IMG/VR virus record: IMGVR_UViG_3300030419_007641 | Span: 1-24,981 of that record | Reading direction: 5' to 3' (one strand) | Origin: a virus | Length of the DNA stretch: 24,981 nucleotides | Part shown: piece by piece, positions 408 through 21,162 of the stretch | How positions within the stretch are numbered: position 1 is the stretch's first letter | Layout of the letters: every line of letters starts with the position of its first letter | Notes under the pieces: model-generated | Databases searched by the model: none | Told to the model about the DNA's origin: nothing | What the model saw: the letters and a program-made list of their open reading frames with translations, nothing else | Position numbers and translations under genes: made by a program

Positions 408-1505
408 ATGTACGCAAAAGGCTCCATTAGCAATACTGAGTATAAAAATCCAGATCATTCGTTTTATAGGGGTATTGTTTTAGATGATAAAGATCCAAAT
501 AAGCTTATGCGCCTTAAAGTTTTTATTCCAGAGTTATCTAATCAACCTTACGAAAGCTGGTTTGACGAATATTCTAATGGTACACAGGAAATGAGACAGC
601 CTGGCAAAATAGGCCCGTTACAATTACATGAAGTAGATACACTTAAGGAGTTATTACCGTGGGCTGAGCAGATGGCTCCGTTAATGGGAGAATCTGGACT
701 ATCACATTACTTCGCTCCAAAAGGCGAACAGCGATCTAAGGCTACGTATGTTAAAGACGGAACAAAAGATACACCACCGTCCGCAGAAACAGGCGGCCTT
801 CCTCCTAGAGATACTATAGCTGGTGAAGGAGCAGACTGTGCAGACGAATGGGTATCCGGAAAGTATGGTAAAAGTAATCCACACGGTGGTGCGTTTGCTC
901 CAAAGAATTCAGGGTCTATAGCATCTGGAGTCTACGGTGTACCACCAGTAGGTTCACACGTGTGGGTTTTTCATTATAGAGGAGACTTAAATTTTCCTGT
1001 ATATTTCGGTACATCAACAAGCTATAGAGAAACCGGGTTAGTTTGGGGAAATGATGAACAGACATATCCGTTCTCCTACGAAAGCAACGGTGGTGAAGAA
1101 GGTGTTGAAGACACACCTCCGGACCCATCTGCTGAACAAGCTGACGGGTTAGATCCAAGATGGGACGCGTTAATAAGTAGAGCAAGAGAGCTAGGAGCAA
1201 AATTTCGAATTACAGATGGATTTCGATCTGTAGCAAGACAAAATCAATTGTATGCTCAGGGACGAACTCGTCCTGGAAAAATTGTAACAAATGCACGGGG
1301 CGGGCAATCAAAACATAATAAAGGACTTGCTATTGATGTTGTATGGACCGGTGGTGCAAATAATTTAAATGCATTATATAATGCAGCTGAGCTAGAAAAA
1401 ATAGCTAGAATTTTTCAACAAGCAGGTAGAGAGCAGGGTGTAGATGTCAGGTGGGGCGGTGATTGGAGTAGTTTTAAGGATACACCGCATCTCGAAATAC
1501 GATAA
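408..1505 (+). CDS. gp5-like baseplate hub/spike protein with M15 peptidase domain
   Basis: A 365-residue protein. Residues about 16-205 resemble the gp5 OB-fold of T4-like baseplate spikes, with FYRGIVLDDKDPNKLMRLKV at the front and a GVPPVGSHVWVFHYRGD segment later. Residues about 248-365 are a VanY-like M15 D,D- or L,D-peptidase domain: SKHNKGLAID (301-310) gives the SxHxxGxAxD zinc motif, and GDW..F.DTPHLE (351-363) gives the second His (361) and Glu (363). T4 gp5 carries a glycoside-cleaving lysozyme at this place. Here the peptidoglycan cut would be in the peptide stem instead. The protein should sit at the tail tip and open the cell wall during injection. The next gene follows 6 bases later and probably supplies the beta-helical needle. 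Confidence 0.8.
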   Translation: MYAKGSISNTEYKNPDHSFYRGIVLDDKDPNKLMRLKVFIPELSNQPYESWFDEYSNGTQEMRQPGKIGPLQLHEVDTLKELLPWAEQMAPLMGESGLSHYFAPKGEQRSKATYVKDGTKDTPPSAETGGLPPRDTIAGEGADCADEWVSGKYGKSNPHGGAFAPKNSGSIASGVYGVPPVGSHVWVFHYRGDLNFPVYFGTSTSYRETGLVWGNDEQTYPFSYESNGGEEGVEDTPPDPSAEQADGLDPRWDALISRARELGAKFRITDGFRSVARQNQLYAQGRTRPGKIVTNARGGQSKHNKGLAIDVVWTGGANNLNALYNAAELEKIARIFQQAGREQGVDVRWGGDWSSFKDTPHLEIR

Positions 1506-1511
1506 AATAAA

Positions 1512-3380
1512 ATGACTAACCAACAAAATTCAGCAGCTAACGAGCAGTATAGAAACAAATTCGTTTTTAATCAACGGGGTGGCTCTATTGAGATAGATAA
1601 CACAACGGGCCAAGAAGGGATGTATTTTACGCAATATAACGGAAATAACATTAAAATTACACCTGATGTTATTTCGCAATATGCGACAAATAATAAACAA
1701 ACATTAGTTGCAAACGATAGTTTTGAAACTGTTAGAAATGATAAATGTATATTTGTTGGAGGGGATTATATTTACCGTGTTATAGGTAATCATTCAGTTC
1801 AAAGTGGATATACTGATGATAGTCAACTGGAGGCCCTATCTGCATGGAAAGAAGAATTTAGAGCAGTCGCGGAAAGAAACTCATTAGGCGAAATACAACG
1901 AGGTGGAGAAAGCTTTCCCAACGGTGTTGTTACTCCGGAAGTAGGTGAAAGATCACCAAATCCGTCTAAAAATCAAGAGAAATATATTATAGATGATGTA
2001 TACGGAACAATCGAACAATCATCGTTTGCTAGCGGTAAGCCTGCTGCGGTAAGTGAGGAGGTCGATGAAGTAACAGACTATAGTACAATTAACATGCCAA
2101 GTAGCAATGGACTGCTTGTTGTTAATCCAAACACTGACGATTTTGGTGAAGATATTAACCCGGCTACAGAGGGCGGGTTATTTGACAAGACACCGGGAAG
2201 ACAGCCAGAAGATTTTTTAGAAGATATTCCAAGATTACAGCGAGAAAAATTGACAGAGTTAGAAGGAAAGTTTGGTGGTGGTGTCTCTAATAAAGGTGGT
2301 GACGATAGTGATTTTGTTTTTCGTAATAAAGCAATAATGATTGGTGGTGAAGTTAATGATTATCCTTCTATAAGAACATTTCCAGATGGTCGCGCCACCC
2401 CTAGTCGTGTTATTGTTGGACCGCAAGCAGGAGCGTTTGTTGAAATTGATGCTGTACCACATGTAGAAGAAGTAAACAATAGTTATTTTCCTGTTGGAAA
2501 CTATTCAGTTCATGCAGGGAACCGTTACAATCTTAATGCTGGTTCAGGTGGAGTTGACATTAAAACTACCGGTCCAGTTGAAATTGGTGCTACTACATAT
2601 AAATTAGCTGCTAATAAAGTAAATATCCAATCTTCAGCTGGTGTTAATATTACCAGTGAAAACTTGGTTGAGCTAACTTCGTTAAATAATATTTCATTAA
2701 GATCTAATAAACAGGTTCTAGTTGAACCTGGGTTGGGGGTTAAAAATAATGTTATTATCGGAGGATCAACATATACGGAAGGTGAAACGTATTTACATCA
2801 TGTCACTGCACCGACGGAGATACAACAAACAGAAGAGACTACTTTATTTGGTAAATTACTCGAGGGACTAGAACTTGATGTGGAAATCGTCGGAAGTGGG
2901 TTTGTAGGAAATTTAGGCAACCCGATCACCGGTGAAGCCACTTTAAAGTTAAGACAAGATTCGAATCCAGATAAAGTTGAATGTGCTCCTCATAGTCATC
3001 ACTTTAAAAATTTACCACTTAGGTTAACTGATTCCTCTAAAAGCGTGCGTACTATTGCAATTGGTGAAAATATTAATACTGATGGATTTCAGACACCAGC
3101 ACAAAATATTGTACACGAGTTAAAGCAACCCACTAATGAACCTACTCCACCACGAGAGTTAAAACCAACAGAAGACACACTATTACCACATGATAGAGAG
3201 CGTGTTGAAATAGATGGTACTATAAAACCCGAATTTAAGCAATTAGAGAAATCCGGATTTTTCGCTAAAGATGCGCCGGTCAGCGAAGAAGGTGAAGATG
3301 TTCTTGAAGGTGAAGCGGTTCTTGATGAAGAAGTTGAAGGAGTAGGGATGGTTGGGAATGAACAACAACCAATCGCTTAA
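1512..3380 (+). CDS. baseplate spike / beta-helix needle protein
   Basis: A 622-residue protein. The N-terminus is rich in short beta strands (GGSIEIDNTTGQEGMYFTQY, then NDKCIFVGGDYIYRVIGNH). Residues about 330-420 contain repeating strand motifs (YSVHAGNRYNLNAGSGGVDI, later NVIIGGSTYTEGETYLHH) like the triple beta-helices of gp5 C-termini and VgrG needles. The C-terminal 120 residues are proline- and acid-rich and probably disordered. CAPHSHHF near residue 495 could bind a metal ion. It follows the gp5-like gene in the same unit after the junction TAA-AATAAA-ATG. The likely role is the needle part of the spike that T4 encodes as one gp5 chain. The tail end overlaps the convergent clpP-like gene by 4 bases. 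Confidence 0.65.
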   Translation: MTNQQNSAANEQYRNKFVFNQRGGSIEIDNTTGQEGMYFTQYNGNNIKITPDVISQYATNNKQTLVANDSFETVRNDKCIFVGGDYIYRVIGNHSVQSGYTDDSQLEALSAWKEEFRAVAERNSLGEIQRGGESFPNGVVTPEVGERSPNPSKNQEKYIIDDVYGTIEQSSFASGKPAAVSEEVDEVTDYSTINMPSSNGLLVVNPNTDDFGEDINPATEGGLFDKTPGRQPEDFLEDIPRLQREKLTELEGKFGGGVSNKGGDDSDFVFRNKAIMIGGEVNDYPSIRTFPDGRATPSRVIVGPQAGAFVEIDAVPHVEEVNNSYFPVGNYSVHAGNRYNLNAGSGGVDIKTTGPVEIGATTYKLAANKVNIQSSAGVNITSENLVELTSLNNISLRSNKQVLVEPGLGVKNNVIIGGSTYTEGETYLHHVTAPTEIQQTEETTLFGKLLEGLELDVEIVGSGFVGNLGNPITGEATLKLRQDSNPDKVECAPHSHHFKNLPLRLTDSSKSVRTIAIGENINTDGFQTPAQNIVHELKQPTNEPTPPRELKPTEDTLLPHDRERVEIDGTIKPEFKQLEKSGFFAKDAPVSEEGEDVLEGEAVLDEEVEGVGMVGNEQQPIA

Positions 3381-3994
3381 TTTATTTCATCAACAAGACC
3401 GTACTCTAAGCAAGTTTTACTATCAAACCAAAGATCATGCTTTAAAATCTCATCAAGTTTTTTCATGGGTATCGTAGTGTACCGTTTATAGATAGACTTA
3501 ATTGTAGACATTAAATGCTTATTATTTTCCATATCATCTTCAAGCTCATTATACTTTCCGTAGAGACCTGAACTTAATTGATGGATTAACATCTTAGAAT
3601 ACTTACCAATAAAACGTTTCGTGCATGATACAGAAATAATAGTTGCTGCTGAAGCTGCTGCACCTTCGACATAAGAATGTACTTCACTGTTTAAATTTCT
3701 TAAAACATCTACCGTTGCTAGACCGGCAAACAATGACCCACCGTAAGAATTAATATGAAGATTAATAATAGGTCGAATATCCAGAAACACATTTGTTACA
3801 GATAGCTTTTTATCTAGTTCATGGAGAGTTGCATTTAGCTCTAGTATATTAGCCTCTGTTATATCACCGTAAAAATATAAATTATTTTCAATTACCTTTG
3901 TTACTGAACCACCGGAAGAGGGCGACGCGTTAATAATATATTGTGGTGAGCTTTGTTCTTCCTCTTCTTCCTTATTAGTATATTTCCAGTTCAT
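3377..3994 (-). CDS. clpP: ClpP-like serine protease (S14)
   Basis: With the start at ATG 3994 (4 bases after the nrdA stop) the protein has 205 residues. It shows the ClpP fold signatures: YFYGDIT (40-46), INLHINSYGGSLFAGLA (77-93), the nucleophile Ser115 in EGAAASAA, His138 in MLIHQLSSG, and an Asp near 187 in HDLWFDSKTCLEYGLVDEI. The first 25 residues are a very acidic tail (KEEEEEQSS). An upstream ATG at 4018 lies inside nrdA and is less likely. ClpP-like proteins in phages act either as auxiliary proteolytic subunits or as head maturation proteases. Its place at the end of the nucleotide-metabolism unit, not beside a capsid gene, favours the first role. Confidence 0.8.
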   Translation of the reverse strand: MNWKYTNKEEEEEQSSPQYIINASPSSGGSVTKVIENNLYFYGDITEANILELNATLHELDKKLSVTNVFLDIRPIINLHINSYGGSLFAGLATVDVLRNLNSEVHSYVEGAAASAATIISVSCTKRFIGKYSKMLIHQLSSGLYGKYNELEDDMENNKHLMSTIKSIYKRYTTIPMKKLDEILKHDLWFDSKTCLEYGLVDEIN

Positions 3995-3998
3995 AATA

Positions 3999-5645
3999 TT
4001 AGCCTTGACAAGAAGCACAATTGAGAATATTTCTCGCTAGCTCTTGAGCTGGATTAGCGCTTCTCTGATAGTATAGTGACTTAATTCCGCTTTGCCAGGC
4101 GTAAATTAAAAGTTCATTAACTTCTCTCGGCTTTGTTTCTGGTGGAATCATTAAATTTAAAGATTGACCTTGATCAATATACTTTTGCCGCATTGCAGCT
4201 TGAATAATAATTTCTTTTTGTGATATCTCTCCGAAGGTTTTAAAAATATCTTTTTCTTCATCAGATAAAAATTTTAGATGTTGTACACTGCCTCCATGAT
4301 TTAAAATACTTTTCCAAGTAGTTGCATTATCTTTTTCTTTTTCTTTTAGTAGCGTTACAAGGTGCGGGTTACGATACGTAAACTTACCCTTAGCTAAATC
4401 TTTAGTAAAGTAATTTGAATTTAAAGGTTCTATAGAAGGTGATACTTGACCAAGAATAAATGAACTACTGGTAGTAGGAGCTATAGCTAAAGTGGTAGCA
4501 TTCCGTATACCATACCCTTTACATAGTTCTGGTTCACCAAACAACTGCGCTAATTCTCTAGTAGCGTTATCACACCTCTCCTTTATTAAAACAAATATTT
4601 CTTGATTGATACCTTTAGCCATTAAAGACTCAAAGGCAATCATTTTTGATTGAAGATATGTATGCCACCCTAAAACACCAACACCCAATGCTCTTTGTCT
4701 TACAGCAAAGTTATGAGGTGCTTCCATATACTTTACACCTTCAGTCTTCTTAATAAAATCAGACATTACAGCATCTAAAAAATAAACTAAAGTTTCGATA
4801 GCATCTGTCTCTTTAATTTCATCCCATAATACTAAATTTAGAGAAGATAAATCACAAACAAACGACTCATCTTCAGAGGAAGATAAAAATATTTCTGTAC
4901 ATAAATTACTAGCGTGTATCTTTTTATCTTTATCTTTGTAAACCTGTGGTGCATTATTATTAGCAGTATCTGTCCAAAAGATATAAGGATACCCTGTTTC
5001 ATATCTCTTCTTAATTATTTTTGCCCACAATTTACGCTTTTCCTTATTACCATCAACAACAGCTTGCATCCATTCATCCGTTATGCATACACCAAAAGAT
5101 AGATCTTGTACGGGGTCTCCTTCTGATCTTATCCTCATAAACTCCTCAATGTCAGGATGTTCAACAGGCAAATAAGCTGCAAAAGAGCCTCTACGTACAT
5201 TACTCTGTGAAACATAATTTATAAGAGCGTCAAATACAGTAAGTTGATGATGTACACCTGTTGCAGCCCCTCCGGAGGATATTGGAGCACCACGGTGCCT
5301 TACTGCACCAAAATAGCCAGAGGTACCACCACCCACTTTAGACATTGTACCAACTTCAGCAACCTTAGTAAGAATTTTTTCCATATCATCTGGAATAAAG
5401 CTACCAAAGCAAGAAATTGGTAACCCTCTTTCTTTACCAAAATTTGACCAAATAGGAGAAGACAGAGAATAAAAGCCTCGAGCCATATAGTCGGTAAACT
5501 TGTCTGCGAATCCTTTTATTTTAAGATATTTTTCAGCGGTTTTAGCAATAGTTTCAATTCTTTCTTCAGGTGTCTCTCCTTCTTCTAGATAACCTCTTTT
5601 AAGAAACTTTTTAGAATCTGCATTTAACCAACTATAATTTTTCAT
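3999..5645 (-). CDS. nrdA: ribonucleotide reductase, large subunit (class Ia-like, no ATP cone)
   Basis: A 548-residue catalytic subunit that reduces ribonucleoside diphosphates to deoxy forms. Visible active-site parts are Cys79 (PISCFGSF), Cys249 and Glu251 (ASNLCTEIFL, the thiyl radical and acid/base residues), Cys264 (FVCDLSSLNL), the radical-path tyrosines Tyr525-Tyr526 (SLYYQRSANPAQ) and the C-terminal redox pair CASC (543-546). The N-terminal ATP cone of cellular NrdA (about 100 residues) is absent, so dATP feedback inhibition through that domain is not expected. It follows nrdB with only 2 bases between stop and ATG and is presumably cotranscribed. The clpP-like gene follows. Confidence 0.95.
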   Translation of the reverse strand: MKNYSWLNADSKKFLKRGYLEEGETPEERIETIAKTAEKYLKIKGFADKFTDYMARGFYSLSSPIWSNFGKERGLPISCFGSFIPDDMEKILTKVAEVGTMSKVGGGTSGYFGAVRHRGAPISSGGAATGVHHQLTVFDALINYVSQSNVRRGSFAAYLPVEHPDIEEFMRIRSEGDPVQDLSFGVCITDEWMQAVVDGNKEKRKLWAKIIKKRYETGYPYIFWTDTANNNAPQVYKDKDKKIHASNLCTEIFLSSSEDESFVCDLSSLNLVLWDEIKETDAIETLVYFLDAVMSDFIKKTEGVKYMEAPHNFAVRQRALGVGVLGWHTYLQSKMIAFESLMAKGINQEIFVLIKERCDNATRELAQLFGEPELCKGYGIRNATTLAIAPTTSSSFILGQVSPSIEPLNSNYFTKDLAKGKFTYRNPHLVTLLKEKEKDNATTWKSILNHGGSVQHLKFLSDEEKDIFKTFGEISQKEIIIQAAMRQKYIDQGQSLNLMIPPETKPREVNELLIYAWQSGIKSLYYQRSANPAQELARNILNCASCQG

Positions 5646-8599: not shown

Positions 8600-9337
8600 T
8601 TATTTATCTAGAGCTGCGCGTAATGCATCTTTTATTTTTACTTCTGCACGAGAATCTACATCATCTTTTCTACCAGGTGAAATCTCTCTATGCGTCGTTA
8701 CTGTGGATAAATCCTTAGGCCATCCCCATTTTTCAAATCTAGGAACCAGCCACTCGATAGCAGATGCTACTTCATCATCAGTAAGCTCTCTAGTATTTGT
8801 ATTACCGCTAAATGCTAACCCTAAAAGAAATCCATTACAGTTAGTTCTACCATTAAAGCTAGATTTACCGGCATGCCAACATCTTCTATCATCATCTGCA
8901 AATGATGTCCTCTCGCCGTTAGTATCTATAATACAATGATAGGACACTTGTGACTTTGATTGACAGATCCAACTTACCGATCCCCCATAAGACCCAGAAG
9001 AGTGATGTAGCACAACACCTTCAGGTCGAATTCTCGACGAAGATATATTAGGCGAGGGCTTATTTATTTCTTGGTATGGAAACTGTGAATCGCTTGGCGT
9101 TACAGTAACCTTTTCTTCTTCCCCAAGACCAAGACTTTCTAAAATACCTTTAGCCGTATTAGGACCGTATGCACCATCAGGTAATCTATCTGTTTTCTTT
9201 TGAATAATTTTTGTCAGGTCTTCTTTCGAAAAATCTAACTTACTTATAATTTTTAGAGCCGTATTCTTACCATAAATTCCATCTGAGGTAGCTCCTACTG
9301 CTTCTTGTATCTTCTTTGTATCGTCTTTAAGGGCCAT
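8600..9337 (-). CDS. endolysin: N-acetylmuramoyl-L-alanine amidase with peptidoglycan-binding-like repeats
   Basis: A 245-residue protein when started at ATG 9337. Residues about 5-72 contain two repeats resembling peptidoglycan-binding type 1 domains (TSDGIYGKNTALKIISKL, then PDGAYGPNTAKGILESLG). Residues about 103-245 are an Amidase_2 (T7 lysozyme-like) domain: zinc His in VVLHHSSG (111/112), VSYHCIIDTNGE, CWHAG (153-157), and THREISPGRKDD (215-226) with the second His and a probable Asp ligand. It cleaves the bond between muramic acid and L-alanine. There is no signal peptide, so it needs a holin. The frame is open to 9565, but that upstream part covers the divergent gene. The promoter-like element 6 bases before 9337 supports the shorter form. 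Confidence 0.88.
   Translation of the reverse strand: MALKDDTKKIQEAVGATSDGIYGKNTALKIISKLDFSKEDLTKIIQKKTDRLPDGAYGPNTAKGILESLGLGEEEKVTVTPSDSQFPYQEINKPSPNISSSRIRPEGVVLHHSSGSYGGSVSWICQSKSQVSYHCIIDTNGERTSFADDDRRCWHAGKSSFNGRTNCNGFLLGLAFSGNTNTRELTDDEVASAIEWLVPRFEKWGWPKDLSTVTTHREISPGRKDDVDSRAEVKIKDALRAALDK
8601..8608 (-). promoter_or_regulatory. late promoter-like GATAAATA
   Basis: GATAAATA ends 5 bases before ATG 8595 and is formed by the last codons (Asp-Lys-stop) of the endolysin gene. Confidence 0.5.
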
Positions 9338-9343
9338 AATAAA

Positions 9344-9351
9344 TTTATTTA
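9344..9351 (-). promoter_or_regulatory. weak late promoter-like TAAATAAA
   Basis: TAAATAAA ends 6 bases before the endolysin ATG. It fits the consensus poorly but has the right spacing and faces a better copy on the other strand. Confidence 0.3.
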
Positions 9352-9379
9352 GTTGGGAGCATAAAAAAGTACATCCGGG

Positions 9380-9387
9380 AATAAATA
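9380..9387 (+). promoter_or_regulatory. late promoter-like AATAAATA
   Basis: AATAAATA ends 5 bases before ATG 9393, at the head of the membrane protein-spanin unit. Confidence 0.55.
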
Positions 9388-9392
9388 TTTTT

Positions 9393-9596
9393 ATGGAAAC
9401 AGTACTTAACTTTATTAGTGATAAGCCATGGTTTGGTCTTATAGCTGCAGTAATTGCTGGAGCAGCAGCCTTTTGCGCCGCTACTCCAACACCTGAAAAA
9501 GGTTCTTGGAAAGCAAAAATATACGGAGTAGTAGAATTTCTCGCTCTTAATATTGGAAAAGCCAAGGATAAAAAAGAAGCAGCTACAAAGAAGTAA
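9393..9596 (+). CDS. small membrane protein, holin candidate
   Basis: A 67-residue protein with one clear transmembrane segment (PWFGLIAAVIAGAAAFCAATP, about 12-32), a short amphipathic part (KIYGVVEFLALNIG) and a lysine-rich tail (KAKDKKEAATKK). Small proteins with this build are common next to phage lysis genes. Here it is divergent from the endolysin and directly followed by the spanin pair (TAA then ATG with no gap), so a holin or antiholin role is a reasonable inference. A single transmembrane segment would make it a class III-like holin. This is not proven. Confidence 0.65.
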   Translation: METVLNFISDKPWFGLIAAVIAGAAAFCAATPTPEKGSWKAKIYGVVEFLALNIGKAKDKKEAATKK

Positions 9597-9872
9597 ATGG
9601 GAATCTTGGGACTGATTAAAGGTGCTCTAAGCGCCTTAACTGCATACTTGGAATTGAGAAATAAAACTCATTATCACCGAGTTGTCACAGAATCACGCGA
9701 CAAGCAAAAAAATCTAATAAATGAAATCGAAACATTACGCACTTCTGGCACTAATGATGGCAATGATAGGGCTGACCTCTTGCGAGACGAACTCCTCGAC
9801 GAAAAGCGGCACCTTGAACATCTATCAGCCTTCTACCTTAAATCTTGCGGCGGGGATTCCGATTCAGAGTAA
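9597..9872 (+). CDS. i-spanin candidate (Rz-like)
   Basis: A 91-residue protein with a hydrophobic N-terminus (MGILGLIKGALSALTAYLEL) followed by a charged, helical, probably coiled-coil region (about 33-80) and a short acidic tail. Inner-membrane spanins have this order: N-terminal anchor, periplasmic coiled coil. The anchor is short and contains a lysine, so membrane insertion is not certain. The identification rests mainly on the overlap with a typical lipoprotein gene in another frame (9721-9975), the classic Rz/Rz1 arrangement. It starts immediately after the stop of the upstream membrane protein. Confidence 0.65.
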   Translation: MGILGLIKGALSALTAYLELRNKTHYHRVVTESRDKQKNLINEIETLRTSGTNDGNDRADLLRDELLDEKRHLEHLSAFYLKSCGGDSDSE

Positions 9873-9975
9873 AGCAGGAGTTTACACTCCGCAAACTGAT
9901 GAGGTGTGGCATTCTGATGCACGCTTCCGGAAGCTAGAACGAGAAGTATACTTCAATCCTGCCAATAACAAATAG
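9721..9975 (+). CDS. o-spanin (Rz1-like outer-membrane lipoprotein)
   Basis: An 84-residue lipoprotein. The signal peptide MKSKHYALLALMMAMIGLTSC ends in a lipobox (LTSC), so Cys21 should be acylated and the protein placed in the outer membrane. The mature part is short, with EVWHSDARFRKLEREVYF near the end, a segment I recall from phage o-spanins. It begins inside the i-spanin gene in the +1 frame, overlaps it by 152 bases and extends 103 bases beyond. With the i-spanin it should fuse inner and outer membranes in the last lysis step. Its presence implies a host with an outer membrane. Confidence 0.8.
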   Translation: MKSKHYALLALMMAMIGLTSCETNSSTKSGTLNIYQPSTLNLAAGIPIQSKAGVYTPQTDEVWHSDARFRKLEREVYFNPANNK

Positions 9976-10578: not shown

Positions 10579-10702
10579 ACAACGAGTAACAAACAAAGAA
10601 TATAGAGGCAAAAAAACAACGCAAGGTATTGGTAAGCTTTCCAAGGGACATAAAAAATATCGTGGTCAAGGCGGTAGAAAAAAGCGCTATAAAGCGCAAT
10701 AA
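10571..10702 (+). CDS. 43-residue very basic protein, function unknown
   Basis: The frame from ATG 10571 to TAA 10702 encodes a protein beginning MAKQRVTNKEYRGKKTTQG and ending RGQGGRKKRYKAQ. More than a third of residues are Lys or Arg, with many Gly and no acidic residue except one Glu. This resembles small ribosomal or nucleoid proteins and suggests RNA or DNA binding. It is short, but the 8-base overlap with the preceding gene and the compositional bias support it as real. Confidence 0.5.
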   Translation: MAKQRVTNKEYRGKKTTQGIGKLSKGHKKYRGQGGRKKRYKAQ

Positions 10703-10747
10703 TTTATAAAAGCTACTATTATACCCAGTTTATTTGGATAAATTCGC

Positions 10748-10755
10748 CATAAATA
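10748..10755 (+). promoter_or_regulatory. late promoter-like CATAAATA
   Basis: CATAAATA (7 of 8 to consensus) ends 5 bases before ATG 10761 and decides the start of the DUF1549 gene. Confidence 0.6.
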
Positions 10756-10760
10756 CTTAT

Positions 10761-12581
10761 ATGGTTAAGTATTTATGTATGGGTGTTTTAGCCTTTTCTA
10801 CCTTAATTTGTAAGGGCGAACTTGCACCTGAGACAATTGTTAAGCATGCAAATCAGATTGATATTATTGTAGCAGGGGAGCTTCGTAATAAGAGGCTGAA
10901 AATGCCCGCTGCAGCTAATGATACTGTACTATGTCGGAGATTATATTTAGATATTGTAGGTCGACCCCCTACATCGGATGAGATACGGCAATTCTTAGAA
11001 ACAAAAGATAGACCCGCTCTAATAAAAAAATTAGTAAATAGCGAAGGCTATGTTCATCACATGTATAGTTTCTGGGCAGATTTACTCAGAGTTAAGCGCA
11101 ACCTAAATGATAATGTCGGTCAGCTATATGGAGATGCATATATTGAGTGGTTAAAAGAGCAGATCAGAGCTAATACTCCTTATAATAAATTAACAAAAAG
11201 TTTATTAGGAGCTAATGGAAATATATGGGAAAATCCAGCCACCGGGTATCTTTTACGAGACCTAGGCATGCCCTTAGATAACCTGTCTAATACAACGCAA
11301 ATTTTTCTAGGTATTGATATGGCGTGTGCACAGTGCCACGACCATCCTTTTGATGAATGGACCCAGATGGATTTTTATAAGTCCGCAGCATTTTTTGCTC
11401 AGGTAGCTACTAAAAATTCACAAGATGGGGTTAAAGAGCATATTAAGGGGCTACGCGAAGAAGCTAAAGAAATGCAAACCAATGGTAAGAGAGGAATAGA
11501 AAATAAGCTCAATAATTACCTTAGAACAATATACGAATATGGTGTAGATTCTAAACCAAATGGCCGAGTTAGATTACCTGATGATTATGCATATCGAGAT
11601 GCAGAGCCTAAGAGCATTGTATATGCCTCTACTCCATATGGGGAGCGTGTTAAAGAGTCTCGCAATAAACATAAGAGGGAAAAGGATCCTCATAATTTAA
11701 GAAGAAGTTTTGTTGATTGGGTTATTAATGATACTAATCCAACATTTGCACTTAACATAACAAATCGGTTATGGAACCATGCTATGGGCGCCCCAATTAT
11801 ATCTCCTATGAACAATGTAATGGAAGATGGGGAAATAAGTGTTGGAAAAAATAGACGCTTAATGGAATATTTACCGAAAATGTTTGTTAGTATTAACTAT
11901 GATGTAAAGGGATTTTTAGAAATAATTTATAATACGAAAACATATCAACGCGTAAGTTGGCAGGGGTATCAAGATGACTATGTATTCCAAGGGCCTATTT
12001 CTAGAAGACTTACCGCTAGTCAGCTCTGGGATAGTTTCATAACTTTATATCTAGATGATCCAGATTCTGTAACTCCTAATTATGCTAATTCACAATACAA
12101 AGAAATGGCACAAAAAGACATATCTGAAGTAACTTTGCAAGATGCTATTGATGGTCTAGAAAAGTTTAACTCCCTACAGAGAGGTACATATAACCAGCTC
12201 CCAAAAATGGGTCCATGGTATGCTGTTAGAGCATCACATGTTAATCGCCCTAGTAATAATTTAAACGTCTTAATTGAATTCGGTCGCAGTGATAGGCGGC
12301 TAGTCGATAACGGATCTACAGAAGGTTCTATTACACAGCTCTTATTATTAATGAATAGCCCTCTTGTTTCTGCTCTATCTAGCAATAATAGTGCATTAAT
12401 TAGAAAATTAAATAGTTGTAAAGATGATACTACACGAATGTATACATTGTTTTATTCTATTGTTGGGAGGTCACCTACTCCTGAAAACTTTACCAAATTT
12501 AAACCATATATTGAAAAAAGACAGTACCAAGATGTAATATGGGCACTTGTTAATTCACATGAAGCAAAATTTATAAATTGA
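10761..12581 (+). CDS. secreted DUF1549/DUF1553 protein of PVC-bacterium type
   Basis: A 606-residue protein from ATG 10761; the frame is open a little further (TTG 10734), but that would cover the promoter. Residues 1-19 (MVKYLCMGVLAFSTLICKG) look like a signal peptide. A DUF1549 (PSCyt2) domain follows: LCRRLYLDIVGRPPTSDEI near the start, then MACAQCHDHPFDEWTQMDFY with the family's C-x-x-C-H. The second half is DUF1553 (PSD1): SFVDWVINDTNPTFALNITN, RLWNHAMG and TYQRVSW. These domains are expanded in Planctomycetota and Verrucomicrobiota, where they are almost always next to a DUF1501 gene, as here. Biochemical role is unknown; a link to extracellular sulfated polysaccharides has been proposed for the families. 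It is short compared with cellular versions and lacks an extra cytochrome module. Confidence 0.88.
   Translation: MVKYLCMGVLAFSTLICKGELAPETIVKHANQIDIIVAGELRNKRLKMPAAANDTVLCRRLYLDIVGRPPTSDEIRQFLETKDRPALIKKLVNSEGYVHHMYSFWADLLRVKRNLNDNVGQLYGDAYIEWLKEQIRANTPYNKLTKSLLGANGNIWENPATGYLLRDLGMPLDNLSNTTQIFLGIDMACAQCHDHPFDEWTQMDFYKSAAFFAQVATKNSQDGVKEHIKGLREEAKEMQTNGKRGIENKLNNYLRTIYEYGVDSKPNGRVRLPDDYAYRDAEPKSIVYASTPYGERVKESRNKHKREKDPHNLRRSFVDWVINDTNPTFALNITNRLWNHAMGAPIISPMNNVMEDGEISVGKNRRLMEYLPKMFVSINYDVKGFLEIIYNTKTYQRVSWQGYQDDYVFQGPISRRLTASQLWDSFITLYLDDPDSVTPNYANSQYKEMAQKDISEVTLQDAIDGLEKFNSLQRGTYNQLPKMGPWYAVRASHVNRPSNNLNVLIEFGRSDRRLVDNGSTEGSITQLLLLMNSPLVSALSSNNSALIRKLNSCKDDTTRMYTLFYSIVGRSPTPENFTKFKPYIEKRQYQDVIWALVNSHEAKFIN
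12572..12579 (+). promoter_or_regulatory. possible late promoter TATAAATT inside the end of the DUF1549 gene
   Basis: TATAAATT (7 of 8) lies 3 bases before ATG 12583. The spacing is shorter than elsewhere, so chance is possible. Confidence 0.25.
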
Positions 12582-12582
12582 T

Positions 12583-13806
12583 ATGAAAAGAAAGGACTTT
12601 ATAAGAAATACGGCATACTCTTTATTTGGTGTATCAGCACTAGGAGAAGGTATGGGAAAATCGATTAAGCCAGATCCTAACAATAAGGTTAAATCTGTTA
12701 TTTACATTTATTTACAAGGGGGAATGAGTCACTTAGATTCTTTTGATCCTAAGGAAAATGAAGAAGTAAAAGGTACAACAAATGCTATTGGGACAAATGT
12801 AGATGGAATTCAAATTAGTGAACATTTACCTAAACTAGCAGCGATAATGGACAAAATTGCAATAGTTAGAAGTATATCTTCTACGGCTGGTGCACATAAA
12901 CAGGGTCAGTATATTGCTAGAACTTCTTACCAGCTTAGAGGGTCTATTATACATCCATCTCTCGGTGCATGGGCTGCCAGTGAGATTAAAAGAGAGACAG
13001 AGCTTCCTGGTTATGTACTAATTAGCGGGCCATCTAATCACCCTGGATCCGGCTACTTACCGAAAAAATTCTCCCCGTTAACTATTGTTGATCCAAATCG
13101 TGGATTAGCCAACGCTAAAACTGATCCTAAATTAACTGAACGACTTGAACTATTAGGATCGGTTAATAAAACTGCAAATGTTAAACAACCTAAAATAGCA
13201 GAATATGTACAATTTTATGATGAGACATTAAAGCTATTGAACAGTAGCGAACTAAATGTATTTGATCTTAATAAGGTAGGTAGTAAAAAAAGAGCTGACT
13301 ATGGTATGAATAAAATTGGTCAAGGGTGCTTATTAGCAAAGCAGTTAGTACAGCAAGGGATTACGTTTGTCGAAGTAGAAAATGGTGGTTGGGATACCCA
13401 CGTTAATAATTTTGATAAACTAACTGAAAAGCTTCCAGAAGTTGATAATGCCGTTTCTGCATTAGTTGCTGATTTAGAATCGGAAGGTCTGTTGGACAGT
13501 ACCTTAATTGCAATTGCTACTGAATTTGGTCGTACTCCTAAAATTAATACAAACACCGGCAGGGACCATCACCCGGCAGCTTATAGTTCTGTATTAATTG
13601 GTGGTGGTATTAAAGGCGGGGTAGTATATGGTGAAACAGATGATAAGGGACAAAAGGTCAAGAAAAACAAAGTAACGCCACAGGACTTTAATGCTACAAT
13701 AGGGTCAGCGTTAGGTCTCCCAATAGAGAAAGAGTTTTTCTCTCCGACCGGTAGACCATTTCATATAACCGGTAAAGGTACCCCTATTAAAGATATCTTA
13801 ACCTGA
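12583..13806 (+). CDS. DUF1501 protein (alkaline phosphatase/sulfatase-like fold)
   Basis: A 407-residue protein. The N-terminus KRKDFIRNTAYSLFGVSAL resembles a degenerate twin-arginine signal, usual in this family. DUF1501 landmarks follow: YLQGGMSHLDSFDPKEN (about 43-59), VEVENGGWDTHVNNFDKL (about 266-283), IAIATEFGRTPKIN (about 308-321), and GRDHHPAAYSSVLIGGGIKG (about 326-345). The acidic and histidine residues in these motifs form a metal site like that of the sulfatase/phosphatase superfamily. The gene starts one base after the DUF1549 stop, the standard cellular pairing. Codon use is AT-rich like the other phage genes, so the pair is not a recent capture. The 3' end overlaps a convergent small gene by 9 bases. 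Confidence 0.88.
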   Translation: MKRKDFIRNTAYSLFGVSALGEGMGKSIKPDPNNKVKSVIYIYLQGGMSHLDSFDPKENEEVKGTTNAIGTNVDGIQISEHLPKLAAIMDKIAIVRSISSTAGAHKQGQYIARTSYQLRGSIIHPSLGAWAASEIKRETELPGYVLISGPSNHPGSGYLPKKFSPLTIVDPNRGLANAKTDPKLTERLELLGSVNKTANVKQPKIAEYVQFYDETLKLLNSSELNVFDLNKVGSKKRADYGMNKIGQGCLLAKQLVQQGITFVEVENGGWDTHVNNFDKLTEKLPEVDNAVSALVADLESEGLLDSTLIAIATEFGRTPKINTNTGRDHHPAAYSSVLIGGGIKGGVVYGETDDKGQKVKKNKVTPQDFNATIGSALGLPIEKEFFSPTGRPFHITGKGTPIKDILT

Positions 13807-14000: not shown

Positions 14001-14027
14001 GTGAGTTTATTTTATCTTTAAGTTAAA

Positions 14028-14504
14028 TTAGAACTTAAAGGAGACACCAACACGAAACTGCTCATCAGTATCTTCGGTCTCGAAATCGTAACCAAAGGTA
14101 TAGGTTGCAAAGATAGACTTGCTTTCGCTTAATGCATAAGCAATACCAGGTCCGACGCGTACGTCCCACCCGAGAGTATCTGTTTCAAGCCAATTTAGTC
14201 CAACACCGCCGGTTGCAAAAACCGTAGCGCCACCGAAGCTAAACACATCATATGTTACGTTAACATCGGTGAGGACATCATCCCCGTTTACTCCCAGAGC
14301 TAGCTCAAGGCCAAGATCTACACCAGCAAGTGAGACAGGAGTAGTTGCGCCAATCGTAAGGGCTGGATCTTCACCATTTGTGGTGGTAATACCAGTCTTA
14401 AGATCAGCAACGTCAACACCAGCTACTGTTGCTGCAGTAGCCGGTCCAGCAAATGCAACACTGGCAAGAGCAAGTGCAGCAAGTAATGTAGTTACTTTTT
14501 TCAT
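14028..14504 (-). CDS. small outer-membrane beta-barrel protein
   Basis: A 158-residue protein from ATG 14504 (an ATG at 14510 is only 2 bases from the promoter element). The signal peptide MKKVTTLLAALALASVAFA ends in an A-x-A type cleavage site. The mature part shows alternating beta strands (LGLELALGV, VNVTYDVFSFGGATVFATGG, DVRVGPGIAYALS, SIFATYTFGYDFE) and ends in FRVGVSFKF with the C-terminal Phe needed by outer-membrane assembly. Length suits an 8-stranded OmpA/OmpX-like barrel. It has its own late-type promoter and a strong terminator, so it is a single-gene unit made late in infection. A role in host-surface change is inference. Confidence 0.75.
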   Translation of the reverse strand: MKKVTTLLAALALASVAFAGPATAATVAGVDVADLKTGITTTNGEDPALTIGATTPVSLAGVDLGLELALGVNGDDVLTDVNVTYDVFSFGGATVFATGGVGLNWLETDTLGWDVRVGPGIAYALSESKSIFATYTFGYDFETEDTDEQFRVGVSFKF

Positions 14505-14512
14505 ATACATAT

Positions 14513-14520
14513 TATTTATT
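14513..14520 (-). promoter_or_regulatory. late promoter-like AATAAATA
   Basis: AATAAATA ends 8 bases before ATG 14504 (2 before the ATG at 14510). Confidence 0.5.
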
Positions 14521-14591
14521 ATAATCTGTGGTTAATCAATGGCAATACTTTTATTTTTATTTTTAAGAAATTCTTATTTAATAGACCTTAA

Positions 14592-15398
14592 TTATTTACT
14601 AGACTTAACTACGTCTGGCTTTTTAGTGCGAAAAGGGTTATCACTCGACTCTAAAAGATTTCTGAGTGCGTCAATATCCCGTTCTTTAATTTCGTCTGTA
14701 AAGCCACGTTTTATTGGCTCAATAGGTTGATCCGCGGAATCCCAAGCTACTTTATCCATTCTTATACCAGGAGATCTCCACTCCTCTATTATTTTATCTC
14801 CAGGACCATAAATTCTGAGAATTACACCTAACAAACTTTCTTTATAACTATACCCATAATACCGTCGACTACTAACATTGTATAGTGTCGATGGGGTAGT
14901 ATTAAATGTTATTCTATCATTATATCTTATTGGACCCTTTATTGATTCGCTACCCTGTTGAAACTGGAGCTCTTTTGACTGTACTTGAGATACCGTACGG
15001 TAATCAACGCGTAAATCACTGACCGGTTCTCTAGTTAAATTAGTTATAGTAACTTCATAAACATATACCTCTGTTCCATTACTTGAATAATATGTTCTCT
15101 CACCCCTATCTTCTGATTGCTTTTTCTTTGCTGTTTCTATTCTAAAAGCGTAATCTAGAGTTGGCGGTGTACTTTTCATCCAGCTGCGGATAAACTCCTG
15201 ATCTTTCTTACTAAACACATCTACTTTAACATTCATTTCTTTACCACCTTTATTAATCTTTATACGGTCTGCAGCAGGACCTGAATGCGAAACTAACTGA
15301 GCGTTTATTATTCTACCATATTTATCCTCAAATACTCTCGCAGCAGTTGAAGCTATTAATATAATAGTAATACCAATTATACAAACAAAAAATTTCAT
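14592..15398 (-). CDS. secreted protein with SLA1-homology-like (SHD1-like) domain
   Basis: A 268-residue protein. Residues 1-20 (MKFFVCIIGITIILIASTAA) are a signal peptide or anchor. Residues 21-72 (RVFEDKYGRIINAQLVSHSG, then MNVKVDVFSKKDQEFIRSW) match the pattern R-x-W/F-x-D-x-x-G-x-x-I-x-A-x-L of SHD1-like repeats that are common in Verrucomicrobiota and Planctomycetota secreted proteins. Residues about 85-235 are beta-rich with a conserved-looking YVYEVTITNLTREPVSDLRV and may be an Ig-like domain. The charged C-terminus is probably disordered. A late-type promoter lies 9 bases upstream. Function in the phage is unknown; an envelope location is likely. Confidence 0.65.
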   Translation of the reverse strand: MKFFVCIIGITIILIASTAARVFEDKYGRIINAQLVSHSGPAADRIKINKGGKEMNVKVDVFSKKDQEFIRSWMKSTPPTLDYAFRIETAKKKQSEDRGERTYYSSNGTEVYVYEVTITNLTREPVSDLRVDYRTVSQVQSKELQFQQGSESIKGPIRYNDRITFNTTPSTLYNVSSRRYYGYSYKESLLGVILRIYGPGDKIIEEWRSPGIRMDKVAWDSADQPIEPIKRGFTDEIKERDIDALRNLLESSDNPFRTKKPDVVKSSK

Positions 15399-15776: not shown

Positions 15777-16193
15777 TGGTGGAGGTGAGGGGAGTCGAAC
15801 CCCTGTCCTAGAGTACTTTTCACAATAACTCGTTACATACATGGCTTGCTAATTTAATCAAAATAAGGGCTAACAAGCTAACTATCTTATTTTGTTTGAA
15901 GTTATATTTTTGGTACCCTATCAACTTCTTACTTTAGATACTATATCCTCTATCGAGCACTCTTCCTACTAGAGGAGTCATAAGTCGAGCGTCACAGCTT
16001 ATGCTGCGAGAGCGAACTGAGGCTCAGCCTGTGGAAGAACAAAGTCAACCACTTTGTTGGCTGCGCTTGAGATCGCCTTTTTAGTTTTAGCGATAACTTT
16101 TGCAGTTATAACTTGATCGGGTTTTACGAGGCCATCGATCAACCTCGGTATGCATTACTATTTCCAGATGTCTAGTCGAAACCAGGCACCCCC
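15777..16193 (-). ncRNA. ssrA: transfer-messenger RNA (tmRNA) with a 34-residue tag
   Basis: A complete one-piece tmRNA of 417 bases. The 5' end GGGGGUG pairs with 3' CACCUCC followed by ACCA, forming a 7-bp acceptor stem with encoded CCA. The T arm AGGGG-UUCGACU-CCCCU is perfect. A pseudoknot like PK1 is visible near the 5' side (GAGG..GAUCG with CCUC..CGAUC). The tag frame is 16103-15999: after UAUAACU the resume codon GCA begins AKVIAKTKKA, and the tag ends EPQFALAA followed by UAA. The final ALAA is the usual degradation signal. It rescues stalled ribosomes. A perfect TATAAATA lies 6 bases before the 5' end. Confidence 0.93.
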
Positions 16194-16229: not shown

Positions 16230-16703
16230 TTAACACAGACCACATGTACATGGTAAGTTACTATTAGCACCTACCTTTTTTCTAGGTTGTGGCTTTTTAT
16301 GACCAGGGCGTCCTCCTTCTGGCTTTTTATGACCACGATGTGGCTTACGATTCTCAGGCTTTTCGCGGTCTGGACCAGGCTTTCCGCCTCCCGGGCGTTT
16401 GTCTCGTCGGCGATCACCGAATCTCTTTTTCATTTCTTCAGCAGCTGCTTTTTTCTCCTCAGGGCTAATTTTACCATCACCGTCCTTGTCAAATCTCTTT
16501 AAGAACTGAGCTTTACGAGCTTCACCGGCTGCCTTACGCTCTTCAGCATTTAGCTTACCGTCTCCATCTTTATCAAATTTTTCAATTAATTGTTTAATAC
16601 CTGGGTGCCCGCGGTGCTTACGACCTTCTTCTTTTTCAGGAGTTGCGCCTGCTGCAGCAAGCCCGACAATTGCTGCAAGAGCAGCGATTAATGTAAGTTT
16701 CAT
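16230..16703 (-). CDS. secreted EF-hand protein with basic tail
   Basis: A 157-residue protein. Signal peptide MKLTLIAALAAIVGLAAAGA. Two EF-hand loops, DKDGDGKLNAEE (44-55) and DKDGDGKISPEE (72-83), carry all calcium ligands (positions 1, 3, 5, 12). From about 97 the chain is rich in Gly, Pro, Lys, Arg and His with repeated HRGHKKPEGGRPGHKKP, and it ends in CTCGLC, a possible metal or disulfide site. Such secreted EF-hand proteins are frequent in Verrucomicrobiota and Planctomycetota. A perfect TATAAATA lies 6 bases upstream, so it is a late gene. A role in the envelope or in binding polyanions is inference. Confidence 0.78.
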   Translation of the reverse strand: MKLTLIAALAAIVGLAAAGATPEKEEGRKHRGHPGIKQLIEKFDKDGDGKLNAEERKAAGEARKAQFLKRFDKDGDGKISPEEKKAAAEEMKKRFGDRRRDKRPGGGKPGPDREKPENRKPHRGHKKPEGGRPGHKKPQPRKKVGANSNLPCTCGLC

Positions 16704-20656: not shown

Positions 20657-21124
20657 TCAATTCCTCATGAACTCCTTCGGATGGCTTGTTATTGCACCTT
20701 TCGTTTCAGATGGAGAATTCCTCATGAACTCCTTCGGATGGCTTGTTATTGCACCTTTCGTTTCAGATGGGGAATTCCTCATGAACTCCTTTGGATGGCT
20801 TGTTATTGCACCTTTCGGCTCAGCAGCAGGTTCCGCCTTATTATACATAGCAATAAGAGCATCACGTACTTCTGGTTTAAGAGTAGGTGGACCTTTCCGG
20901 CCAGAGAGGATAAGAGCATGCTGACCATAATCGCGATCGTAATTGGCTGTACTAGCCATTGCCCATTTAATTAGCTCATGATCAGCTACATCGGCCGTCT
21001 GAGAAGCTTCTTCTTTACCTCTAACTTGATCAGGTGTAGCGCGCCCAAGGTTCATTTCGTTTAGAATCTTATCGTATGATTCAGCAAGGTTAATTAAATC
21101 TTTTTTGTGTTGATTTTTGGCCAT
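20657..21124 (-). CDS. putative internal head protein with LAESY leader and C-terminal 19-residue repeats
   Basis: A 155-residue protein from ATG 21124; an ATG at 21160 in the same frame would cover the promoter. The N-terminus MAKNQHKKDLINLAESYDKI is paralogous to the 20254 leader, with cleavage expected after Glu15. The C-terminal 55 residues are nearly three copies of the unit KGAITSHPKEFMRNSPSET. The copies differ only at silent third positions, so the amino acids have been kept while the DNA changed. The middle (SQTADVADHELIKWAMASTA) is helical. Function unknown; repeats may bind DNA or another head component. Confidence 0.72.
   Translation of the reverse strand: MAKNQHKKDLINLAESYDKILNEMNLGRATPDQVRGKEEASQTADVADHELIKWAMASTANYDRDYGQHALILSGRKGPPTLKPEVRDALIAMYNKAEPAAEPKGAITSHPKEFMRNSPSETKGAITSHPKEFMRNSPSETKGAITSHPKEFMRN
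20661..20818 (-). repeat. 57-bp tandem repeat, about 2.8 copies, inside the 20657 gene
   Basis: Copies start at 20661, 20718 and 20775. The period is 57 bases, or 19 codons. Differences between copies are single bases (for example TTCGGA/TTTGGA and GGAGAA/GGGGAA). Confidence 0.95.
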
Positions 21125-21129
21125 GTAAT

Positions 21130-21137
21130 TATTTATA
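21130..21137 (-). promoter_or_regulatory. late promoter TATAAATA
   Basis: Perfect TATAAATA ending 5 bases before ATG 21124. Confidence 0.68.
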
Positions 21138-21162
21138 CTAGATACATTAATTTTTCGCAAAG

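Follow-up and report, generated by a model that had tools for sequence, protein, structure and literature searches.

The window analyzed in this study, by which we mean the whole stretch of 24,981 nucleotides, comprised bases 1–24981 of a 196,877-bp virus record (IMGVR_UViG_3300030419_007641) and carried a pair of adjacent plus-strand genes encoding a DUF1549/DUF1553 protein and a DUF1501 protein. The protein of the first open reading frame (ORF; 10734–12581) matched both PSCyt2/DUF1549 (1e-43; 150.2 bits against a cut-off of 29.8) and PSD1/DUF1553 (5.2e-24; 85.4 bits against 28.5) in Pfam, and that of the second (12583–13806; 407 aa) matched DUF1501 (PF07394) over profile positions 2–390 of 390 (2.4e-102; 343.5 bits against 27). 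The likely start of the first gene was the ATG at 10761, as this codon opens a Sec-like signal peptide (MVKYLCMGVLAFSTLICKG) and a late-type promoter begins 13 nt before it; read from there, the gene (10761–12581) encodes 606 aa. Its stop at 12581 and the DUF1501 ATG at 12583 were one base apart. An earlier note on this DNA had described the arrangement as the exact cellular pairing. The gene order was indeed cellular, but the one-base spacing was not, as the DUF1553–DUF1501 gap was mostly 1–10 nt in phages and mostly 14–160 nt in cells.

The virus is T4-like (Pantevenvirales-type), and its T4-type core genes share the contig with the pair. The record matched the PHROGs families for portal (4e-104), major head protein (7e-84), prohead protease and tail sheath stabilizer, together with DnaB-like helicase, single-stranded DNA-binding protein, primase and ribonucleotide reductase. 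The G+C fraction at third codon positions was 0.257 and 0.243 for the two genes of the pair, compared with 0.25 for the phage portal gene and a median of 0.685 for cellular DUF1501 homologues; the base composition of the pair is that of the phage. Thus, the presence of the pair in a phage and the AT-rich codon use common to both, as read from the letters in the earlier note, were borne out by Pfam matches above cut-off on a T4-like record and by these compositions.

A late-promoter-like element, CATAAATA, occupied 10748–10755 on the plus strand, beginning 13 nt upstream of the DUF1553 ATG. The corresponding motif, NATAAATA, was strongly enriched before the genes of G000, including the portal gene, and often stood at −13 from the ATG. 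It preceded the pair in 24 of 40 phage loci, against a background of 2.2% of 85-nt windows. Nearly all of the loci with NATAAATA before the pair belonged to the window’s subclade, most of which had the motif at −13, and the late-type promoter that had been proposed before the pair was thereby upheld. As the motif before the pair was mostly absent or degenerate in the other T4-like subclade, late expression, judged from the promoter sequence, was well supported in the window’s subclade only. In G000 the element stood before approximately 45 genes, with window examples at 10748 and before the genes at 14028–14510 and 16230–16703. The motif lies so near the ATG that late transcripts may be leaderless.

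Both proteins carried putative export signals. The listed phage homologues of the DUF1553 protein had Sec-like N-termini, as judged by eye, and nearly all viral relatives of the DUF1501 protein had an RRxF-type twin-arginine translocation (Tat) motif. The window’s DUF1501 protein was an exception to the S/T-R-R-x-F pattern, reading KRKDF (R-K). Export of the pair, by Sec for DUF1553 and by a twin-arginine-type signal for DUF1501, was supported by these N-termini, and a putative secretion signal, as named in the earlier note, was thus seen on each partner. A lipoprotein signal on DUF1553 was ruled out, as STLIC-K forms no proper lipobox.

The pair was not unique to this phage. In three scans of IMG/VR, relatives of DUF1501 or DUF1553 were found on more than 100 contigs, and more than 40 of these carried both partners as neighbors. 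Neither protein had a match in INPHARED (GenBank phages) by tblastn, and PHROGs contained no family for either. The T4-type major head protein gene was present on 14 of the 50 pair-related records searched, all 14 in the group closest to the window; many of the remaining records were short fragments or other viruses. Within the window’s subclade, the same flanking genes were found in independent assemblies. The relatives L188/L189 and L217 kept the lysis cassette and the outer-membrane gene described below and lacked the pair. In the nucleotide alignment, L188 matched window 10610–10686, continued with approximately 144 bp, and then matched window 14008–14581, and the segment missing from these relatives extended approximately over 10687–13800. 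These empty sites show the pair to be a discrete accessory cassette of ca. 3.1 kb, which is acquired or lost as a whole. The possibility that the contig is an assembly chimera or contaminated, which the earlier note had named as its refutation, was rejected, as the junction genes recur in independent assemblies, empty-site relatives exist, and more than 40 contigs carry the pair.

Further DUF1501 genes were observed in related viruses. Many T4-like relatives (L015–L032, L117, L135) carried a second, diverged DUF1501 of ca. 35% identity, and in L117 a further DUF1501 lay directly downstream of the pair. Other viral contigs (L143–L170; up to 178 kb, some with terminase) carried DUF1501 without DUF1553, in some cases in tandem. 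These other phage lineages acquired their DUF1501 genes independently.

In a 49-row maximum-likelihood tree, the DUF1501 proteins of T4-like phages formed one clade (bootstrap 99; Shimodaira–Hasegawa-like approximate likelihood ratio test (SH-aLRT) 93) nested within Verrucomicrobiota proteins. A 128-row tree agreed and showed several further, separate DUF1501 transfers between cells and viral contigs. The phage DUF1553 proteins likewise grouped together, all on one side of a branch with SH-aLRT 87. A deep division into two phage groups was common to the trees of the major capsid protein, DUF1501 and DUF1553, which differed in detail; this indicated that the pair was likely co-inherited with the phage from an old date, with some later exchange. 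Median ratios of nonsynonymous to synonymous substitution (dN/dS) were 0.079 for DUF1501 and 0.087 for DUF1553, corresponding to purifying selection. Host derivation and retention under selection, as expected of an auxiliary metabolic gene, were therefore both found, with the phage DUF1501 clade nested in Verrucomicrobiota and dN/dS near 0.08, and by these sequence comparisons the pair is an old, adapted and selected possession of the phage.

The nearest cellular relatives of the pair were from Verrucomicrobiota, at ca. 45% identity. A complete transfer-messenger RNA (tmRNA) gene was found at 15777–16193 on the minus strand (Rfam RF00023, 132.5 bits; tag AANKVVDFVLPQAEPQFALAA), and its ends closely matched many Verrucomicrobiota genomes, that phylum alone being compared, so that the match is supporting rather than decisive. 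Judged from the DUF1501 and DUF1553 trees, with the phage DUF1501 proteins nested among those of Verrucomicrobiota, and from the tmRNA ends, the host is probably a member of the Verrucomicrobiota. The earlier suggestion that the pair points to a host in the Planctomycetota–Verrucomicrobiota–Chlamydiota (PVC) group could thus be narrowed to one phylum. When 388 genomes of the phylum were searched for clustered regularly interspaced short palindromic repeats (CRISPR) spacers and shared DNA, no spacer was recognized among the matches listed; the matches listed fell in the tmRNA, in motifs encoded by the pair, or around 15.4 and 16.5 kb. A cupin/mannose-6-phosphate isomerase-type ORF, listed from 15823, probably has its start immediately past the tmRNA.

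The DUF1501 structure model had a predicted local distance difference test (pLDDT) score of 91.2 and gave 203 Foldseek matches in PDB at E ≤ 0.001. The best 50 of these 203 all belonged to the alkaline phosphatase/sulfatase superfamily, including sulfatases, sulfamidase and LtaS, and the profile search gave weak matches, every one to the same superfamily. Residues H105, D271, D328 and H329 were invariant in 64 proteins and H273 was present in 62 of the 64, making these five candidate metal ligands. The nucleophile motif of formylglycine sulfatases (C/S-x-P-x-R; CxPxR) was missing from the conserved DUF1501 columns; therefore, the protein should not be called a sulfatase. In the DUF1549 part of the partner, a CAQCH motif (residues 189–193; 11325–11339, plus strand) conformed to CxxCH and was invariant in 48 of 48 aligned proteins. 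On a protein with a Sec-like signal this is the signature of c-type heme attachment seen in PSCyt-type proteins, and the motif is a candidate c-type heme or metal site. The DUF1553 model (pLDDT 89.9) had no PDB match at E ≤ 0.001 and hence gave no functional clue.

The closest known counterpart of the phage pair was the cellular PSCyt2–PSD1 plus DUF1501 module of Planctomycetota and Verrucomicrobiota, which was similar in domains, gene order, export signals and conserved motifs. The phage version differed in that complete phage DUF1553 proteins were 576–615 aa, compared with mostly ca. 690–880 aa in the nearest Verrucomicrobiota homologues, and in that its genes nearly abut, are AT-rich and have their own phage late promoter. 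The resemblance of DUF1501 to arylsulfatases, sulfamidase and LtaS lay in the fold and in a C-terminal metal-type D-H motif; this likeness, by model and sequence, came with identity of ca. 8–14%, template modeling scores of 0.3–0.46 and no CxPxR among conserved columns. A single earlier viral DUF1501 record, A0A6J5M742 from an uncultured Caudovirales phage, also places DUF1501 in phage sequence by automatic annotation. It is distant from the window’s protein (16% identity in structural alignment), and no role for it was described in the sources searched. DUF1800–DUF1501 gene pairs have been described near bacterial chitin synthases (PMC5122149). They are similar in placing a DUF1501 protein with a Tat motif beside a second protein of unknown function, and differ in that the partner is DUF1800 rather than DUF1549/DUF1553 and the setting is cellular, with no phage context.

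Upstream of the pair, the window carried a lysis locus. An N-acetylmuramoyl-L-alanine amidase endolysin (8603–9436, minus strand; PF01510, 1.8e-17; PHROG endolysins) was followed on the plus strand by a small hydrophobic protein (9393–9596), kept in 14 loci beside the amidase and the pair, whose sequence and position suggest a holin. Next came a putative Rz-like inner spanin with a weak N-terminal hydrophobic segment (9597–9872), found with a nested lipoprotein in 13 loci, and within it, out of frame, a predicted Rz1-like outer spanin lipoprotein (9721–9975); this arrangement and the lipobox LTSC were present in 13 of 13 loci. In the window, the Rz/Rz1-like genes were followed by two small genes and then by the pair. 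On the other side, the cassette was flanked by a secreted outer-membrane beta-barrel-like protein (14028–14510, minus strand), kept in nine loci, with a weak PF13505 match below cut-off.

The linkage of the pair to lysis genes is frequent, not universal. Physical linkage to endolysin, holin or spanin genes was found in several genomes, in the window’s subclade and in two other arrangements. The holin-like and Rz/Rz1 genes preceded the pair in the window, L116, L118–L122 and L130; a lysozyme stood directly before it in L117, L134, L125, L126 and L129; the order Rz/Rz1, pair, amidase was found in L131 and L132; and an amidase preceded the pair on another backbone in L033 and L133. In the other subclade, an NlpC/P60 enzyme lay directly upstream of the pair in L032, and rIIA/rIIB-type genes were near it in L011–L013. 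A spanin-based search returned 22 loci; 15 of them included the pair or its beginning, and several clearly lacked it. The pair resembled phage lysis cassettes (endolysin, holin and nested Rz/Rz1 spanins) in adjoining one and in having a late promoter, and differed from lysis cassette genes in being dispensable in relatives. To our knowledge, no described lysis cassette contains DUF1501 or DUF1553 proteins.

Elsewhere in the window, a protein encoded at 16230–16703 (minus strand) combined a signal-like N-terminus with two EF-hand motifs and a basic tail of repetitive sequence, and that at 20657–21160 (minus strand) ended in near-identical repeats (GAITSHPKEFMRNSPSETK). The region 408–3380 contained a baseplate/spike-like gene (Phage_base_V, Peptidase_M15) that includes a D-Ala-D-Ala carboxypeptidase domain and, after it, the gene of a large protein without a match, and a ClpP/head-maturation-protease-like serine protease (3377–4018, minus strand) adjoined the ribonucleotide reductase. 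An SHD1 domain expected by eye in the 14592–15398 protein had no Pfam match.

The retention of the pair in dozens of related viruses suggests that it is used on the host envelope late in infection. We tentatively favor, at somewhat less than even confidence, a reading in which the late, exported pair modifies the envelope or a surface glycan of Verrucomicrobiota, most likely aiding release. As a stable phage cassette, the pair would be expressed late as an operon under its own phage promoter. The DUF1549/DUF1553 protein would leave the cytoplasm via Sec and the DUF1501 protein via Tat, probably folded and metal-loaded. Outside the inner membrane, the DUF1501 metalloenzyme and its CxxCH-bearing partner would modify a host glycan, of the envelope or the surface, that bears sulfate or phosphate esters, and the pair would complement the amidase, holin and spanins in freeing progeny from the envelope and its polysaccharide. 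The catalysis, the substrate, the partnership of the two proteins and release as the benefit are what we infer. Among the roles proposed in the earlier note, help with release gained support from the repeated placement beside lysis genes; surface remodeling and receptor removal stay as a rival.

Several observations weigh against aid to release. In many phages of the second T4-like subclade, the pair lay beside replication or portal/tail genes rather than lysis genes (in some phages of that subclade, beside a sugar-nucleotide enzyme), and L123, from the window’s own subclade, had no recognizable lysis neighbors. Other, unrelated inserts occupied the same place, and the lysis locus may be no more than a hot spot for insertion. 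Relatives with the same lysis cassette manage without the pair, which indicated that it is not essential for lysis. A Pfam scan of 112 neighbors of the nearest cellular pairs revealed no dominant partner and no clear substrate, with sulfatases at 2 of 112. In the papers found on DUF1501 or DUF1553 proteins, no activity is known for any, nor do these papers assign the families a function (PMC4452313, PMC5615132, PMC5122149). The literature found on DUF1501, DUF1549 and DUF1553 included none on phages with the pair, the sole phage paper concerning a weak match in a 61-aa protein. With neither INPHARED nor PHROGs giving a match, this agreed with the earlier note, which knew of no established phage role. 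The protein families were known before; none of the sources searched describes phages using them in a conserved late cassette next to lysis genes.

Remodeling of the host surface, by which the exported pair would alter a glycan receptor so that free progeny or competing phages no longer attach to the infected cell or to debris from it (receptor removal or superinfection exclusion), seems rather unlikely. Late expression, export and hydrolase-type anatomy fit it equally, as do the accessory nature of the pair, gained and lost, the mannose-6-phosphate isomerase-type gene in the window, and sugar-nucleotide genes near some members, including an RmlD-type gene adjoining the pair in L014. However, it does not specifically predict the repeated linkage to lysis genes, and no receptor-binding or superinfection-immunity signature was found. 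We consider it unlikely that the pair is an auxiliary metabolic cassette boosting host metabolism through sulfate, phosphate or sugar scavenging or a CxxCH redox role, as cellular paralogues may do. The three Verrucomicrobiota genomes tested had 51–91 DUF1501 matches each, PSCyt proteins have been tied to carbohydrate use (PMC5615132), and the pair adjoins replication genes in some phages; yet the late promoter and lysis-locus placement in the window’s clade fit late nutrition less well, and no metabolic partner genes were seen traveling with the pair. That the proteins are virion components, such as a capsule depolymerase-like enzyme on the particle, is highly improbable: late expression would suit such a role, as would the position, in some members of one subclade, beside the genes for tail-sheath stabilizer and portal, but conserved Sec and Tat signals are unexpected on proteins that are built into virions within the cytoplasm, and neither protein has a tail or baseplate domain in Pfam. 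Finally, the idea that the pair is a piece of host DNA brought in by chimeric assembly or contamination of the contig, or that it is merely carried along neutrally, prompted by domain families otherwise typical of PVC cells, has next to no likelihood and is already contradicted by the number of contigs with the pair, the like neighbors in independent assemblies, the phage-only clades, the phage base composition, the dN/dS near 0.08 and the fixed promoter spacing.

Within the reading of aid to release, a more specific form is conceivable, though distinctly unlikely as a whole: a two-part exported system in which a sulfatase-superfamily hydrolase and a c-type-heme-bearing redox partner attack a polymer on the Verrucomicrobiota surface, adding a separate step to lysis and release. 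If true, this would be an envelope-disruption factor of an undescribed kind and would assign a function, for the first time, to an unknown gene family that is among the most expanded in PVC bacteria. DUF1501, at 51–91 copies per genome in the Verrucomicrobiota tested and often with a DUF1549/DUF1553 partner, has no known function. The phage pair, single-copy, streamlined and strongly selected, with lysis neighbors and a late promoter at a fixed position, offers a system in which that function could be tested. It also marks a large group of T4-like phages with probable Verrucomicrobiota hosts that is absent from the phage records searched, and it suggests that the distinctive envelope or glycan chemistry of these bacteria forms a barrier with which their phages must deal.

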